Translations under genes and position numbers: made by a program | Assembly: GCA_902794125.1 (NCBI GenBank) | Contig: CADBFX010000010.1 | Span: forward strand, 1 to 43,312 | Source: an uncultured Elusimicrobium sp. | GTDB lineage: Bacteria; Elusimicrobiota; Elusimicrobia; Elusimicrobiales; Elusimicrobiaceae | Length of the DNA stretch: 43,312 nucleotides | Direction: 5' to 3' | Shown here: piece by piece, positions 6,370 to 17,030 of the stretch | How the letters are laid out: every line of letters starts with the position of its first letter | Position numbering within the stretch: position 1 is the first letter of the stretch | Notes under the pieces: model-generated | The model's database searches: none | What the model saw: the letters and a program-made list of their open reading frames with translations, nothing else | Told to the model about the DNA's origin: nothing

Positions 6370-6387
6370 TTTGCCTGTTTCAAAAAA

Positions 6388-6411
6388 GCCCGCCAAACGG
6401 CGGGCTTTTTT
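6388..6411. terminator. Terminator after era
   Basis: GCCCGCC/GGCGGGC stem (6388-6394, 6399-6405) with a T-run after and an A-run before, so it can act in both directions. Confidence 0.85.
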
Positions 6412-6433
6412 ATGTATAAAAATAAAAAAACCG

Positions 6434-6449
6434 CAAGCATTATTGCTTG
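6434..6449 (-). terminator. Terminator of the structured RNA unit
   Basis: Minus strand: CAAGCA-ATAA-TGCTTG (6434-6449), then CGG and seven T (6424-6430). Confidence 0.85.
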
Positions 6450-6572
6450 ACGGACTTTTGTTTCAGCCGTTTTAGACAGGAGGAAGTTTCTCTTCCCCTG
6501 TCCGCCGGCGAACAACGTGGCCGGCTTCAAACTGCTTACTTACGAACCTTTCGGTTCAGTTACATGCACCGC

Positions 6573-6662
6573 TTATTTGCGGCTAATCATGTAGTTGGCA
6601 CCGCTAACGTTCTCGCCTACTTTGACGAGCGCTTGGGCGATTTTTTCCAACATCTTTGTCAT
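6573..6662 (-). CDS. Candidate 29-residue peptide within the structured RNA
   Basis: ATG at 6660-6662 to TAA at 6573-6575. The product starts MTKMLEKIAQALVKVGENV and ends MISRK. It is basic and amphipathic, with hydrophobic residues spaced for one helix face. AAGGAG (6675-6680) lies 12 nt before the ATG, longer than ideal. A three-codon ORF (ATG at 6672-6674) sits directly after that site. The last codons and the stop lie inside the TACATG/CATGTA stem, so structure and coding overlap. The leader resembles the amphipathic part of AgrD-type peptides, but there is no Cys-containing ring and no agrB nearby. Translation is uncertain. Confidence 0.35.
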   Translation of the reverse strand: MTKMLEKIAQALVKVGENVSGANYMISRK

Positions 6663-6674
6663 TTACTTTTGCAT

Positions 6675-6713
6675 CTCCTTTTACAACATACGATAAGGAG
6701 TGTCCTTCTTATC
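6675..6713 (-). promoter_or_regulatory. Possible Shine-Dalgarno switch in the RNA leader
   Basis: Minus strand: CTTATC (6692-6697) can pair with GATAAG (6708-6713). The overlapping CTCCTT (6695-6700) is also an exact complement of the AAGGAG ribosome site (6675-6680). The two pairings share bases and exclude each other, so one frees and the other hides the ribosome site. Confidence 0.4.
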
Positions 6714-6723
6714 TTTCTTAAAT

Positions 6724-6752
6724 ATTATACAAAATTTTACAACGCTTGTAAA
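6724..6752 (-). promoter_or_regulatory. Strong promoter of the structured RNA unit
   Basis: Minus strand: TTTACA (6747-6752), 17-nt spacer, TATAAT (6724-6729). Eleven of twelve consensus bases match. Confidence 0.75.
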
Positions 6753-6824
6753 AAAGGACAGATATAATAACAAATCTAAACAAGGATTGCAACTTTATTT
6801 TTCGCTCATTTTCTTTGGGTTTTA

Positions 6825-6836: not shown

Positions 6837-8384
6837 ATGAAAGTGTTACATACCGATTGTTTAGTAGTAGGTTGCGGCCTAGCCGGGTGCGTCTATGCAC
6901 ACCAAGCCGCTAAAAAAGGTTTAAAGACCTTGATGTTGTGTTGCGGGGAATTGTCCCAAGCCAATAGCGATTTGGCCCAGGGGGGAATTGTCTACGAACC
7001 GAACCTGCAACTAGATGAACTACTTGAAGATGTCCGGTTGGCTACGGCCGGCCTTTGCAATGATGAAGCCGTTAAAACACTTTCTCAAGCCGGTTGCCGG
7101 GCGGTAGAAGAAATTTTTTTAAAAGATGTACAGGTTACTTTTGACCGCGATGAACAAAATAATCTTCGCTTTACACGCGAAGGTGCCCATCGTAAAAACC
7201 GTATCATTTATTCCAAAGATACTACCGGGCACGCCATGCTTTCTTCTTTGCAGCGTGCCGTGCAGCAAAACCCGCTGATTACGGTGCAGGAATATGCATC
7301 CGCTATTGATTTGTTAACGCTTTCCCATAGTTCGCCCGATCCGATAGACCGCTACAAACCGCTTACGGTGTTTGGCGCGTATGTGTTAGATAATAAAACC
7401 GGAGAAGTATATGCTGTTACCGCTAAAAAAACGATTTTAGCTACGGGTGGAGTGGGGCAAGTGTACTGCCACACTACCAACGCCGACCATGCGTATGGGC
7501 ATGGGATTGCCATGGCGTACCGCGTGGGTGCGCGTGTGATGAACATGGAGTACGTGCAATTTCATCCCACGGTGTTTGCCAAAGGGAAAAGTTTTCTTTT
7601 ATCCGAAGCGTTACGGGGGGAAGGTGCTATCTTGCGAAATGCGAAAGGCGAGGCATTTATGCCGCGCTACCACGCCTTGAAAGATTTGGCTCCGCGCGAT
7701 ATTGTTGCCCGCGCTATTGAACAGGAACGGTTAAACACGTCGCATGAGTGCGTCTATTTGGATATTACGGCCAACCCCGCCGAAGAAACGAAAAATCGCT
7801 TCCCGGCCATTTATAAAAAATGTTTGGAAGAAGGGTTTGATATAACGAAAACGCCCGTGCCGGTAGTGCCGGCCGCGCATTATTTTTGTGGCGGCATTTT
7901 TACCACACCACAGGGGCGCACAAACATTTTAAATTTAAACGCAATCGGCGAAACAGCGTGTACCGGTTATCATGGGGCAAACCGTTTGGCCAGCACTTCG
8001 CTCCTAGAAGCGGTGGGCATGGGCTATTTATGTGCCCAGGAAGATGCGCAAGATATTGCGCGGGAAAATTTTTACGTTCCCGAACCTAAACCGTGGGTAC
8101 TCCCTTCTGAAAAACCCGATTTGAATTTAATCAAGCAAGATTTATCCACCTTGCGCCGTACTATGTGGAACTACGTGGGGCTTATTCGCAGTTCCAAACA
8201 TTTGGGCCGTGCCGAAAAGATTTTGCGTCACTTGCATAACGAAATTGATGCTTTCTATAAAGGTACCGCCCTTTGCCAAGAATTGCTGGATTTGCGCAAC
8301 GGCACTCAAACCGCGCTATTAATCACGTACGCGGCGCTTAAGAATAAGCGGTCTATCGGATGTCATTATTTATCGGATAAATAA
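6837..8384 (+). CDS. nadB: L-aspartate oxidase
   Basis: A 515-residue FAD enzyme that oxidises L-aspartate to iminoaspartate, the first step of NAD synthesis. It has the N-terminal FAD motif VVGCGLAGCVYAHQA, SDLAQGGI, the active-site loop REGAHRKNRIIYSKDTTG, QFHPT, the catalytic ALRGEGA stretch, the AAHYFCGGI motif and the GANRLASTSLLEA flavin motif. The C-terminal helical domain ends SIGCHYLSD, replacing the usual SRGxHYR. These marks favour NadB over succinate dehydrogenase or fumarate reductase. nadA and nadC are not adjacent. Initiation looks leaderless. Confidence 0.9.
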   Translation: MKVLHTDCLVVGCGLAGCVYAHQAAKKGLKTLMLCCGELSQANSDLAQGGIVYEPNLQLDELLEDVRLATAGLCNDEAVKTLSQAGCRAVEEIFLKDVQVTFDRDEQNNLRFTREGAHRKNRIIYSKDTTGHAMLSSLQRAVQQNPLITVQEYASAIDLLTLSHSSPDPIDRYKPLTVFGAYVLDNKTGEVYAVTAKKTILATGGVGQVYCHTTNADHAYGHGIAMAYRVGARVMNMEYVQFHPTVFAKGKSFLLSEALRGEGAILRNAKGEAFMPRYHALKDLAPRDIVARAIEQERLNTSHECVYLDITANPAEETKNRFPAIYKKCLEEGFDITKTPVPVVPAAHYFCGGIFTTPQGRTNILNLNAIGETACTGYHGANRLASTSLLEAVGMGYLCAQEDAQDIARENFYVPEPKPWVLPSEKPDLNLIKQDLSTLRRTMWNYVGLIRSSKHLGRAEKILRHLHNEIDAFYKGTALCQELLDLRNGTQTALLITYAALKNKRSIGCHYLSDK

Positions 8385-11280: not shown

Positions 11281-11378
11281 CGCCCCCAAGCAGCGGAAAA
11301 GTTTTACCAACCGCAAAATGGTATTTTTCCTATGATTAAATGCTAAAATATACCTATCTTACTAAGAAGAGGGTATAT

Positions 11379-14300
11379 ATGAAAAAATTTTACCAACTGC
11401 TAGTTGCTTCAGCCGCTTTTTTATGTTTGCCGACAGCCGGATTTTCCGCACCGGCTTTAAAAGTGCTTTCCGCCGCACCCAAAGGGTTTCAATCGGCTTC
11501 CGGTCGTCAAGCCGTTTCCGTTACGTTTAACAAACCCGTAGCGGCCTTGTCGGAAGATACCGCTTTTTCTGTGGAAGATTGCCCTTTGCAAGTAACCCCT
11601 TCTGTTCCGGGCACTTGCCGTTTTGTGGGCACGCAGACGCTTCAATTTGAACCGCTGTCCGATTGGCCCGTAGCCACTCGTTTTATTGCACGGGTGCGCA
11701 AAGGGTTTGCATCCCGCGTATCTGCCGAGCAGTTAGCCAATCCCTATACCTTTTCATTTACTACCCAAACCCCGCAAGTGCAAGCCGTCTATCCGCAAAC
11801 CAACGAACATTGGATCAGTCTAAACCCCACCTTATATGTTGTTTTTAATATGCCGGTGAATGTAAAAGAATTATCCAAGTATGCTTCTTTAACGGCGGAC
11901 GGACACACCACCGCTGTTTCGGCCCGCCCTATTACCGAAGAAGAGTACACTAAAAATTTTTCTTATATTCCTTCTGCCAAACAAGTAGTTGCCTTACTGC
12001 CAACACAGCCCTTACAAAGCGGTCGTTCCTATACGCTTCGTCTGGCCCAGGGTTTAAAAGCACTGGACGGAGAAGAAGGCATGGCGCAAGCCCATACATC
12101 CACGTTCTTTACTTATCCGGCCCTTACGGTGCAAGGCACGCTGACAGACGGGTGCTTGCCTTACACACCCGGGGTGCGTTTTTCGTCGCCGGTGCGGCTG
12201 CGGGAACTTATCAGCCAGTTGGAAATTTCGCCCGCCACGGCTTTGCGTAAATTGTCCGATTCGGAACTGGACGCCTTGGGTAACGAAGTTGTCATCCGCC
12301 CGGAAAATCTGTCCAAAGATATGGCGGCCATTTATAAAAAACGCTATAACGTGACGGATGAAGAACTGAAACAAGGGGCTGCTTTCTTCTTTATGCCTCT
12401 TTCCTTTTTAGAGTTAAAAGCCGGCCAACCGGTGACGCTTCGCGTGAGCAAAAATTTGCGGGATATTTACGGTCAAACACTCGGGCAAGATGTTACGATT
12501 ACCGTGCAAAATAGCGGTTATTGCCCGGCGGCGGAATTTGCCGGCGGGTTTGGCGTGTTGGAAAGTTATTTACCTGCGCGCCTTCCGATAGAAGTGATGA
12601 ACCTTCCTATCTTATCCGTCCGCGCGGCTCGTTTTAACAAAGAAAATTTTATTCCTTTTGCTCAGCAAAATAGCCGCTATTGCCAGCCCAAAGCGTTGGA
12701 TAACCCCACCTTTAACGGGCCGTACACTTTATCCAATGTGCGCAATAAGTCATTACGTACTTTCTTTGATTTGTCGCTCTTTAAACCCAGTGCCAAAGAC
12801 AGCATCGTTTTTACACAAGTAAAATTGCCCCGTAGCGGCGCAGAAGATGATTGCTGGACGGCGGCCACTACCAACTTGACCGACGTAGGCCTCACGTTAA
12901 AAACATCGCCTTCTTCCATTTTAATATGGGCTACTTCGTTAGAAACCGGTAGCCCGATGCCTAATCTGGAAGTAGAACTGCGCGACACACAAAACACCAT
13001 TGTTTGGTCGGGATCTACCGATATGAACGGTTTGGCACGCGCCCCCGGCTGGAAAGAGTTGGACGTAAAAGTTCCGTCTTGGGGACAACCCAAATTATAC
13101 GCTTTTGCCTCCAGCTTGGGCGGAGACGGCGTTGTCACTACGGAGTTTAACGAGGGCATAGAGCCGTGGCGGTTTAATTTAGATTACGAATATAATCCGC
13201 AATCGGCAGCCATGCGCGTTTCCTTGTTTACCGAGCGCGGTATCTACCGGCCCGGGGAAACAGTCTATTTAAAAGGTGTTTCGCGCCGGCTTCAAAAAGG
13301 TGCTTGGGCACTACCCAAAGGCCAAAAAGGAACCTTAGTGGTGAGCGACGTCACCGGGCAAGAAATTGTGAAAAAAGAAGTAGCAATTTCCAACGATATG
13401 GGTACGTTTAACGAGTCGTTTAAAGTGCCTGCGTCTGCCCATACCGGTATGTGGGATGTTTCCTTTACGCCCGCTGTTCCCGGAACAACGGATCCTTCCT
13501 CTTACTATACTTCCTTTCGGGTAGAAGCCGTAAAACAGGCCGATTTTAAAGTAACTTTGCTTGCACAGCAACAGAATTATTTATCCGGACAGGAAGCTAA
13601 TTTTGCCGGTTCTGCCGTTTATAATTTTGGGGCTCCGTTAGCACAAGTTCCTGCCAAATGGACGCTAAAACGGGAAATGGCTTGGTTTGAACCGAAAGGT
13701 TTTAACGATTATACCTTTACGCCGTATTTCTTACGGCAAGATGAGTACCGCCAAAACGGACAAGTGGTATTAAGTTCTTCCGGCAAGACGGACGATAAAG
13801 GGGCATTCTCGTTTGCGGCGCGTTTACCGCAAGTGCAAACGCCGACTCAAGTATATGCAGAAGCAGATGTGCAATCGCCGGCGCGGCAGAATTTATTTGC
13901 CCGCACTTCGGTTATGGTGCACCCGGCCTCGTTCTATTTAGGGACAAAGGTACTCACGGAAGACGCCCGCGCCGGCCAACCGGTTCAGGTGGAAGTGATT
14001 GCGCTGACTACCGACGGCCAACGCACCGATACAACCAACGTGGTTGCCCAAATTCGCAAGATACAATGGTATAGTGTGCGCAAAGTTGGTTTATCGGGCC
14101 GTTTGGAATGGGTCAGCGAACGGCAAGAACAGCAACTTCCTTCCCAAACCTTTGATGTGAGTGCGAAAGGTAGCACCTTCTCGTTTACGCCCCAAGAAGG
14201 GGGAAATTATCAAGTTACCTTAGTGTCGGCTGATGCACAAGGTCACCAAGTGCTGGGTGGATTTGATGTCATGGTTTACGGCGAAGGCGAGGCCTATTGG

Positions 14301-17027
14301 CAACGCAACGACCACGATATTTTAACACTGAAACAAGATAAAAATACGTATAAGCCGGGTCAAAAAGCGCGGATTTCGCTGGAATCTCCGTATGAAAATG
14401 CGTTAGCACTTGTTACGGTGGAACGGGAAGGCATTTTAGATGCCTGGACGACTTACGTGAAAGGCGGCGCCGATTATGTGGAAGTTCCGATTAAAGAAAA
14501 TTATTTGCCCAACGTATACGTTAGCGTAACGCTCGTGCGTGGACGTTCCGGTGCGGCCACGGATGAAAAAGGTGTTGATTTGGGTAAGCCGCAAGGAAAA
14601 GTCGGTTATGTAAATTTGACAGTGGAACCGGCTTCCAAACGGTTAAATGTAGAAGTAAAAACCAACCGTACTCAGTTCCGTCCCGGTGAAGAAGTTACCG
14701 TTAAATTGACCACCAAATCCGGCCGCAAAGGTGTGCCGGCCGAAGTGGTTTTGTGGGCGGTGGACGAAGGAATGTTGGCCTTAACCAACTACAAACGGCC
14801 GGACTTATTTAAAGAATTTTATGGTGATCGTCCGATTTCCGTTTTCACGGCTGATAACCGCGCTTACGTAATCGGTCAGCGCAACTTCGGCGAGAAAGGG
14901 GAAAACCGCGGAGGTGGCGGCGGTGCCAATGCCAAATTGGGCGGTGCTGATTTGCGCAGTAATTTCTCGTTTGTTCCGTATTTTAATGCTATTGTAAAAA
15001 CGGATGCAAAAGGGCGCGCAGAAGTATCGTTTAAATTGCCGGATAATTTGACGAAATTCCGCATTTTTGCCGTGGCTGTTCGCACGGATGAATTCGGGGC
15101 GGGGGAAACAGAAGTAAAAGTTTCCAAACCGCTGATGATTACTCCTAACTTGCCGCGTTTTGCCCGCAAGGCGGACCGTTTTTCGTGCGGGGCGGTAGTG
15201 TATAACTACGAAGATAAAAAAGGACAGCTGACCGTTTCTGCCCAAGCCACGGGAGCGTTACAATTGGCCGGACCGGCGGTGCAAGGTATATATGTGCCGT
15301 TGGGTCAAGCCAAAGCAGTATACTGGCCGTGTGTGGCGGACCAAAACGGAAAAGCCCAAGTAAAATTTGAAGTCAAAGGGGCGAAATCTTCTGACGGCGT
15401 TTTAACAGATATTTCCGTTCAGTCTATTGAAAAACCGCAAACACTTGCGTTGTATGCAGCTACGGATTCTAAGCAAAAAGAACTCTTGGATAAGCCGGGC
15501 CATTTGGATCCGCAAGCCGCTAACGAAGTAAAAATAGCACTTTCTTCTACGGCTTTGCTGAATTTAAAAGGGTCGCTGGTATATTTGTGGGATTATCCGT
15601 ATGATTGTTTGGAACAATTGATGTCCAAGATTTTACCGGTGGTGGAAGGTAGTGCGCTGTTGCAAGATTTTAAATTGGCAGACACGAGTGAACTTCGCAC
15701 CCGCGCCCAAGCCATTTTGGATCGCATTGCTCAGTACCAACACACCAGTGGCGGTTTTGGTTATTGGCCGGATTCTCAGCCGGATCCGTACGTTACAGCT
15801 TACACGCTAGACGTATGCGAACGGGCGCGTCAGGCCGGGTTCACTGTACCGACGGCTGAATTACAGAAAGCCGCCAACTGGTTAGAAACGGCTTTTAACA
15901 AAAATCAAGTACGGGCGTATAGTTATAGTTCGTATGAAACGGACATTACCCGCGCTTACAGCGTCTATGTGTTAATGATGTATGGCAAACACATGACGGC
16001 TCCTTTCAATACGCTCTATGCACAGCGTAATTCGCTGCCGGTACCGGCTGTTGCCTATTTGTTAAAGGCAGCTCATCAATCCAACCGCTCGGAGGCGTTT
16101 AAGCAAGCATTGGCGCAACAATTACTCAATAAGGCCGTGCATACGCCGCAATCGGTATATTTTACTGTTCCGGTTTACTTGCCTTGGATTCACATCAACG
16201 ATGTGACCACTACGGCTTTGGCCTTGGATGCTTTCTTACAAACCAAGCAGCCCTTCGCCCAAGCTTTCCAAACGGTAACGTGGCTCTTGCAGCAACTCAA
16301 TGCCCAAGGTCATTGGGATTCCACCACTAATAATGCGGCGGTATTTCAAGCCTTGCAACGCTATTACCAAACCCAAGAAACCGCGGTGCCTGATTTTGAA
16401 GCGCAGGCAAACGTAAATGGGCAAACAGTGTTATCACCGGTGTTTAAAGGACGTTCAGTGGAAGAAGTGGAAGCGATTGTTCCGTTTGCGCAAGCGTATG
16501 CAGACGGGAGCGAAACGTATGTGAATCTTTCCAAAAACGGGGTTGGAACGCTTTATTATTCGTTGGCGCAAACGTACCAGCCCTTGGATTACGACAAGCC
16601 CGTACAAGCCGGTTTTAGCATTAGCCGGGCGATTACGGCGTTAGACGGTTCTGCTGTAAAAGAAATTGTAGCAGGCGAGCGCTATCATGTAACGTTGACG
16701 GTAAATACACCGGCCGACCGCCATTTTGTGGTAGTGGAAGACTTTGTGCCGGCCGGGTTTGAAATTGTGAATACGTCGCTGGCGACGGAATCGGCCCAAC
16801 AGGCTCAGCAATTGGCCGGGAAGAATAGATGGTTCTACCGCAGCGAAAAATATGATGACCATATCGCGGCGTTTGCCGATTACTTGCCCGCCGGAGAACA
16901 CACCTATACCTACACCGTTAGTGTGCTGGCGGAAGGGGAGTTTGCCTACCCGGCTGCTTGGGCGAGTTTGTTGTATGAACCGGCCGTATTCGGACGGACA
17001 GCTACTTCTGAGGTTACTGTTCGTTAA
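11379..17027 (+). CDS. Bacterial alpha-2-macroglobulin with thioester motif
   Basis: An 1882-residue periplasmic protease trap, like E. coli YfhM. The N-terminus is a Sec signal (MKKFYQLLVASAAFLCLPTAGFS) without a lipobox Cys, so it is probably soluble; E. coli YfhM is a lipoprotein. Many macroglobulin beta domains follow, including the RGIYRPGETVYLKG module (about residue 620) and the LWAVDEGMLALTNY region. The thioester motif Cys1410-Leu-Glu-Gln is intact, followed by the alpha-alpha toroid (GGFGYWPDSQPDPYVTAYTL). A Gly-rich stretch near residue 1183 may be the flexible or bait-like segment. The start at 11379 follows AGAGGG and a normal signal peptide. pbpC starts 3 nt after its stop; this pairing is widespread and links protease defence to wall repair. 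Confidence 0.92.
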   Translation: MKKFYQLLVASAAFLCLPTAGFSAPALKVLSAAPKGFQSASGRQAVSVTFNKPVAALSEDTAFSVEDCPLQVTPSVPGTCRFVGTQTLQFEPLSDWPVATRFIARVRKGFASRVSAEQLANPYTFSFTTQTPQVQAVYPQTNEHWISLNPTLYVVFNMPVNVKELSKYASLTADGHTTAVSARPITEEEYTKNFSYIPSAKQVVALLPTQPLQSGRSYTLRLAQGLKALDGEEGMAQAHTSTFFTYPALTVQGTLTDGCLPYTPGVRFSSPVRLRELISQLEISPATALRKLSDSELDALGNEVVIRPENLSKDMAAIYKKRYNVTDEELKQGAAFFFMPLSFLELKAGQPVTLRVSKNLRDIYGQTLGQDVTITVQNSGYCPAAEFAGGFGVLESYLPARLPIEVMNLPILSVRAARFNKENFIPFAQQNSRYCQPKALDNPTFNGPYTLSNVRNKSLRTFFDLSLFKPSAKDSIVFTQVKLPRSGAEDDCWTAATTNLTDVGLTLKTSPSSILIWATSLETGSPMPNLEVELRDTQNTIVWSGSTDMNGLARAPGWKELDVKVPSWGQPKLYAFASSLGGDGVVTTEFNEGIEPWRFNLDYEYNPQSAAMRVSLFTERGIYRPGETVYLKGVSRRLQKGAWALPKGQKGTLVVSDVTGQEIVKKEVAISNDMGTFNESFKVPASAHTGMWDVSFTPAVPGTTDPSSYYTSFRVEAVKQADFKVTLLAQQQNYLSGQEANFAGSAVYNFGAPLAQVPAKWTLKREMAWFEPKGFNDYTFTPYFLRQDEYRQNGQVVLSSSGKTDDKGAFSFAARLPQVQTPTQVYAEADVQSPARQNLFARTSVMVHPASFYLGTKVLTEDARAGQPVQVEVIALTTDGQRTDTTNVVAQIRKIQWYSVRKVGLSGRLEWVSERQEQQLPSQTFDVSAKGSTFSFTPQEGGNYQVTLVSADAQGHQVLGGFDVMVYGEGEAYWQRNDHDILTLKQDKNTYKPGQKARISLESPYENALALVTVEREGILDAWTTYVKGGADYVEVPIKENYLPNVYVSVTLVRGRSGAATDEKGVDLGKPQGKVGYVNLTVEPASKRLNVEVKTNRTQFRPGEEVTVKLTTKSGRKGVPAEVVLWAVDEGMLALTNYKRPDLFKEFYGDRPISVFTADNRAYVIGQRNFGEKGENRGGGGGANAKLGGADLRSNFSFVPYFNAIVKTDAKGRAEVSFKLPDNLTKFRIFAVAVRTDEFGAGETEVKVSKPLMITPNLPRFARKADRFSCGAVVYNYEDKKGQLTVSAQATGALQLAGPAVQGIYVPLGQAKAVYWPCVADQNGKAQVKFEVKGAKSSDGVLTDISVQSIEKPQTLALYAATDSKQKELLDKPGHLDPQAANEVKIALSSTALLNLKGSLVYLWDYPYDCLEQLMSKILPVVEGSALLQDFKLADTSELRTRAQAILDRIAQYQHTSGGFGYWPDSQPDPYVTAYTLDVCERARQAGFTVPTAELQKAANWLETAFNKNQVRAYSYSSYETDITRAYSVYVLMMYGKHMTAPFNTLYAQRNSLPVPAVAYLLKAAHQSNRSEAFKQALAQQLLNKAVHTPQSVYFTVPVYLPWIHINDVTTTALALDAFLQTKQPFAQAFQTVTWLLQQLNAQGHWDSTTNNAAVFQALQRYYQTQETAVPDFEAQANVNGQTVLSPVFKGRSVEEVEAIVPFAQAYADGSETYVNLSKNGVGTLYYSLAQTYQPLDYDKPVQAGFSISRAITALDGSAVKEIVAGERYHVTLTVNTPADRHFVVVEDFVPAGFEIVNTSLATESAQQAQQLAGKNRWFYRSEKYDDHIAAFADYLPAGEHTYTYTVSVLAEGEFAYPAAWASLLYEPAVFGRTATSEVTVR

Positions 17028-17030
17028 TTT

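Follow-up and report, generated by a model that had tools for sequence, protein, structure and literature searches.

A small-protein gene next to nadB, with a structured mRNA, in one Elusimicrobiota genus

Organisation of the interval between era and nadB

The window analysed was a stretch of 43,312 nucleotides of DNA from an uncultured Elusimicrobiota gut bacterium. Its genus is probably Candidatus Avelusimicrobium, of the Elusimicrobiaceae, or the corresponding GTDB genus. The locus lay on the minus strand at 6752-6424, between the two housekeeping genes era and nadB. Judged from its sequence, this interval is an independent transcription unit with a promoter, a 56-nt 5'UTR, a 29-codon ORF, a structured 3'UTR and a terminator. 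Its parts were as follows, in the direction of transcription.

6764-6792, minus strand: upstream promoter-like site TTGCAA-17-TATTAT with an extended -10, weaker than the main promoter
6724-6752, minus strand: main promoter TTTACA-17-TATAAT, with 11/12 bases as in the sigma-70 consensus
6692-6713, minus strand: 5'UTR hairpin with an anti-SD as its 3' arm: CTCCTT (6700-6695), the complement of the Shine-Dalgarno (SD) sequence
6675-6680, minus strand: Shine-Dalgarno sequence AAGGAG, 12 nt upstream of the ATG
6573-6662, minus strand: 29-codon ORF, MTKMLEKIAQALVKVGENVSGANYMISRK, for a small protein predicted to be amphipathic and helical
6544-6557, minus strand: hairpin with a GAAA tetraloop, 3' of the stop codon, with equivalents in many, not all, relatives
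6466-6535, minus strand: three-way junction (match of model R1, 6540-6462)
6535-6529/6472-6466, minus strand: junction P1, with an A.G mismatch
6525-6521/6508-6504, minus strand: junction P2
6503-6492/6486-6474, minus strand: junction P3, with one bulged U
6424-6449, minus strand: intrinsic terminator CAAGC-AATAAT-GCTTG (stem 6449-6434) followed by a T run

The initial annotation had listed a near-consensus promoter, a clear intrinsic terminator, a hairpin with a GNRA tetraloop, a long stem with a single bulge and a 29-codon ORF, and all of these were present. The long stem (6503-6474) was found to have 12 pairs. The stop codon had been placed inside a stem. However, in the minimum-energy fold, a small hairpin holds it in its loop, AAAUAA. 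In 33 of the 38 copies described below, the best sense site had 10-11 of 12 consensus bases. Equivalents of the upstream site (TTGCAT/TTGCTT-N17-TATTAT/TATACT) were visible in most relatives and missing in G024.

Given its length of about 290 nt, its short reading frame and its self-contained layout, the locus might also be a known housekeeping RNA (tmRNA, 6S) too divergent for the Rfam thresholds, or a leader or attenuator. This was hardly credible. No Rfam family was found at the locus at the gathering score, in line with the earlier impression that no familiar RNA family was involved, and the relaxed matches were terminator-like chance matches. With no Rfam match here and the tmRNA gene of this genome on another contig (G000:C12, E 1e-40), a known housekeeping RNA was rejected. 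In addition, the locus was missing from 28 of the 66 genomes of the genus, which would not be expected of a housekeeping RNA. Since era, the downstream gene in the window, is convergent with the unit, a leader would have nothing to attenuate. 6S was not found; its model detected only 5 of 14 control genomes, so that this absence says little.

A strong symmetric hairpin at 6383-6413, AAAAAAGCCCGCC-GTTT-GGCGGGCTTTTTT, separated the unit from era and was suited as a bidirectional terminator. Elsewhere in the window, a 1895-codon ORF was located at 11340-17030 on the plus strand.

The encoded small protein

A profile search with the peptide detected the locus in 38 of the 66 genomes of the genus, with one copy each and E values of 2e-8 to 1e-20, and gave no credible match in the rest of the 341 genomes of the phylum. 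None of the 38 copies had lost the reading frame, although they had diverged at silent sites, and the encoded proteins were 28-33 aa long. Every orthologous ORF had a GGAG-type SD and an ATG start. The dN/dS was about 0.09 in the largest group (15 sequences), and the group means were 0.07-0.22. The third codon position dominated the variable columns, which numbered 14, 5 and 25 at positions 1, 2 and 3. These comparisons made it close to certain that the ORF is truly coding and under purifying selection.

The residues L-E-A-L-G-N-G-Y were invariant in the alignment. A conserved LEKxAEALxKVGENVSGAxY core, of the GENVSGA type in the carriers, was followed by a mostly basic tail. In the divergent G024 copy (L083), ANVQGANY replaced ENVSGANY. 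The helical moment of residues 4-21 was 0.52, compared with 0.20 for shuffled sequences (p = 0.0014). The peptide was weakly hydrophobic (mean H about 0) and had no transmembrane stretch. AlphaFold2 modelled a 33-aa orthologue as a single helix over residues 2-32 with a mean pLDDT of 79. The protein is thus predicted to be a single amphipathic alpha-helix. The amphipathic peptide proposed in the initial annotation was strongly supported by the dN/dS, the conserved SD and the helical moment. No credible profile match to the peptide was found in Pfam, NCBIfam, PHROGs or PADLOC, and the sequence matches in the PDB were weak and short, the best having E 0.011 over nine residues.

RNA structure outside the reading frame

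The RNA 6717-6425 folded at -97.4 kcal/mol, compared with a mean of -71.9 for shuffled sequences (z = -5.1; dinucleotide shuffles, of which 0/200 were as good as the native sequence). Two genome groups differed in the sequences of P1 and P2 and shared P3 in part; the same three-way junction fold was found in both. The covariance model R2, built on one group alone, found the element of the other group at the orthologous place; P3 scored on the reverse strand too, so the P3 hairpin carried part of the model score. When sense copies only were counted in an alignment fitted to the model, 96.6% of the cells were paired, compared with 37-55% when the partners were slid, and 15 of 24 pairs had double-sided changes, where the junction sequences represent few independent lineages and the number of events is below the pair counts. 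In the second group alone, the cells with double-sided changes exceeded all 500 shuffles. From this covariation, a conserved three-way junction in the 3'UTR of most lineages was well supported. The initial annotation had proposed checking relatives for conservation, for covariation and for codon conservation of 6573-6662; in equivalent forms of these tests, the locus was kept in related genomes, covarying base pairs were found, and conservation was seen at the codon level.

One lineage of three genomes (G048, G038 and G037) was without the junction and kept the promoter, the peptide and a similar terminator. Because this lineage lost the junction yet kept the protein, it is probably the protein that forms the core of what the locus makes. 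The same lineage bears on the reading of the locus as a purely non-coding structured RNA with an accidental ORF. The strong folding and the covariation of the 3' structure would suit such an RNA. However, it would not account for the dN/dS of about 0.09, the conserved SD and start, the frame kept in 38/38 copies or the peptide retained where the junction was gone, and we regarded it as very improbable.

The main rival was a putative dual-function RNA, in which the small-protein mRNA would also have a regulatory role through its 3' junction, acting in trans or by binding a protein, as VcdRP or RNAIII do. RNAIII of Staphylococcus aureus, which encodes delta-hemolysin, is a quorum-regulated RNA of about 514 nt with C-rich target-binding loops. 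The present locus resembled it as a structured RNA bearing a small amphipathic peptide ORF. However, C-rich loops of that kind were not seen here. A precedent for a 29-aa protein within one small RNA is VcdRP of Vibrio cholerae, where the small protein VcdP is combined with the base-pairing RNA VcdR, which has a four-cytosine base-pairing segment (PMC8672173). The likeness was in layout, both being short RNAs transcribed on their own that hold a 29-aa ORF besides other RNA sequence, and no sequence relation is claimed. In contrast to VcdR, the 3' part of the present locus was a three-way junction and not a four-cytosine segment, and its RNA activity is putative. Conserved coding ORFs of 10-50 aa in small RNAs are common across bacteria, and a survey of ORFs within annotated sRNAs is reported to have covered 14 bacterial species (PMC5521070). 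The present family is genus-specific and absent from the libraries searched here.

A dual-function RNA would be consistent with covarying structure outside the ORF and with the P3 sequence, GAC[AG]GG/CC[TC]GTC, which was strongly conserved across lineages. This conservation is stronger than simple 3'-end protection needs, which counts against a role in stability. However, the conserved nucleotides were mostly paired, no conserved single-stranded seed was evident, and the junction was absent in three genomes. A dual function of this kind was therefore considered possible but doubtful. We were equally tentative about its more specific form, a dual-function RNA family limited to one Elusimicrobiota genus in which the small helical protein and the junction RNA would each have their own regulatory target. 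Where the initial annotation had suggested a new regulatory or dual-function RNA, the part concerning conserved structure stood. The dual function itself is putative, and the three genomes that keep the peptide without the 3' structure suggest that the peptide is the core.

Of the 38 copies, 31 had a CTCC anti-SD in the 5'UTR ahead of the SD, compared with 6% expected from composition. In the predicted ensembles, the SD of most copies was paired within the 5'UTR. Pairing of the SD with the 3'UTR was rejected, being near zero in the same ensembles. In a swap test of the anti-SD/SD helix, own pairs were no longer than swapped ones and no covariation signal was obtained. One subclade (G014, G020, G007, G012 and G053) was without the anti-SD, and SD occlusion in the window copy was not unusual compared with shuffled 5'UTRs (p = 0.24). 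Because of these three results, translational throttling by the anti-SD was considered only as a hypothesis.

Such a 5' element, together with the size of 29 aa, the amphipathic helix and the structured mRNA, might indicate a type I toxin-antitoxin-like locus, in which an antisense RNA and the folding of the 5'UTR would silence the mRNA for a toxic amphipathic peptide. In the AapA/IsoA systems of Helicobacter pylori, type I toxin mRNAs carry SD-sequestering 5' elements, and AapA3-type mRNAs use SD-sequestering hairpins (PMC6733600). The present locus shared with them a short mRNA and a small peptide, and its 5' anti-SD was a candidate sequestering element. However, a consensus scan of the transcript gave no sigma-70-like promoter in antisense direction that was conserved, and the peptide was weakly hydrophobic without a transmembrane stretch. 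The locus was also single-copy, syntenic and vertically inherited, and it had zero matches in phages, plasmids and viral contigs. Because a conserved antisense promoter, transmembrane character and mobility were all lacking, a type I toxin was less likely than a dual-function RNA, and we judged it unlikely.

Inheritance of the locus and its possible function

The unit was the divergent neighbour of nadB in nearly all carriers. The exceptions were G044, where nadB lay 2.9 kb from the unit, and G061, an assembly without nadB. No matches were found in viral contigs (IMG/VR), plasmids or phages, and with the synteny to nadB this led us to reject a mobile or phage element. Elusimicrobiota MAGs, including UBA1436, were the source of DNA with the same 3' element. 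Among the loci checked, era adjoined the unit only in the window, and a role for this gene was therefore rejected. On the nadB tree, the presence/absence label needed 5 changes, of which starred branches forced 3, compared with 19 when shuffled; this tree alone cannot separate gain from loss. Because both deep lineages of the genus carried the locus at the same place, the simplest explanation is that the ancestor of the genus had it and that several whole clades lost it.

Several weak matches were rejected. Peptide matches in other genera (E above 5e-4) were short stretches within long open frames. On reading, the weak model hits G022:C27, G117:C41 and G002:C38 had no ORF homologue and looked like chance hairpins, and the weak DNA hits G006:C128 and G059:C19, also without an ORF homologue, looked like chance DNA similarity. 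In non-carriers of the genus, other sequence followed nadB at once. Read by eye, this stretch beyond nadB (L088-L108, first 300 bases) mostly resembled the 3' part of a pilin-like, cysteine-rich gene encoded on the other strand; the window has era at that place.

The compared sequences indicated that the locus is a genuine small-protein gene of genus-level distribution, not catalogued before, whose mRNA is structured and whose regulatory function is putative. The family was absent from Rfam, Pfam, NCBIfam, PHROGs and PADLOC. As the most economical and a fairly probable mechanism, we considered a monocistronic mRNA that encodes a small regulatory protein of helical form. The 5' anti-SD of this mRNA may throttle translation, and its 3' structure would stabilise the RNA or act itself. 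Sequence comparison showed a vertically inherited ORF with a promoter, SD and terminator of its own. The amphipathic helix might use its hydrophobic face to dock on a partner protein or a membrane surface. The 5' anti-SD would hold translation low until displaced, and the 3' junction and terminator would shield the transcript from exonucleases that attack its 3' end. How much of the small protein is made would then depend on translation control and RNA stability.

These results add a well-supported family of small proteins, together with a covarying RNA structure that is new. Almost nothing was found in the literature on regulatory RNAs in Elusimicrobiota, and if the dual-function reading were true, no such RNA has been described in the phylum as far as our searches show. 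The lineage that kept the protein without the junction provides a natural comparison for separating the function of the protein from that of the RNA. Standard gene callers may miss such 29-codon genes in this genus.

At nadB, on the plus strand, a TATAAT-like -10 (TTTATATAATATAAGT) was located at 6837-6860 of the window just before the ATG, with no SD. Because of these two features, the nadB mRNA looks leaderless. A related TTATATTATATAA motif was present at nadB in most of the genus, including many genomes without the small-protein locus.
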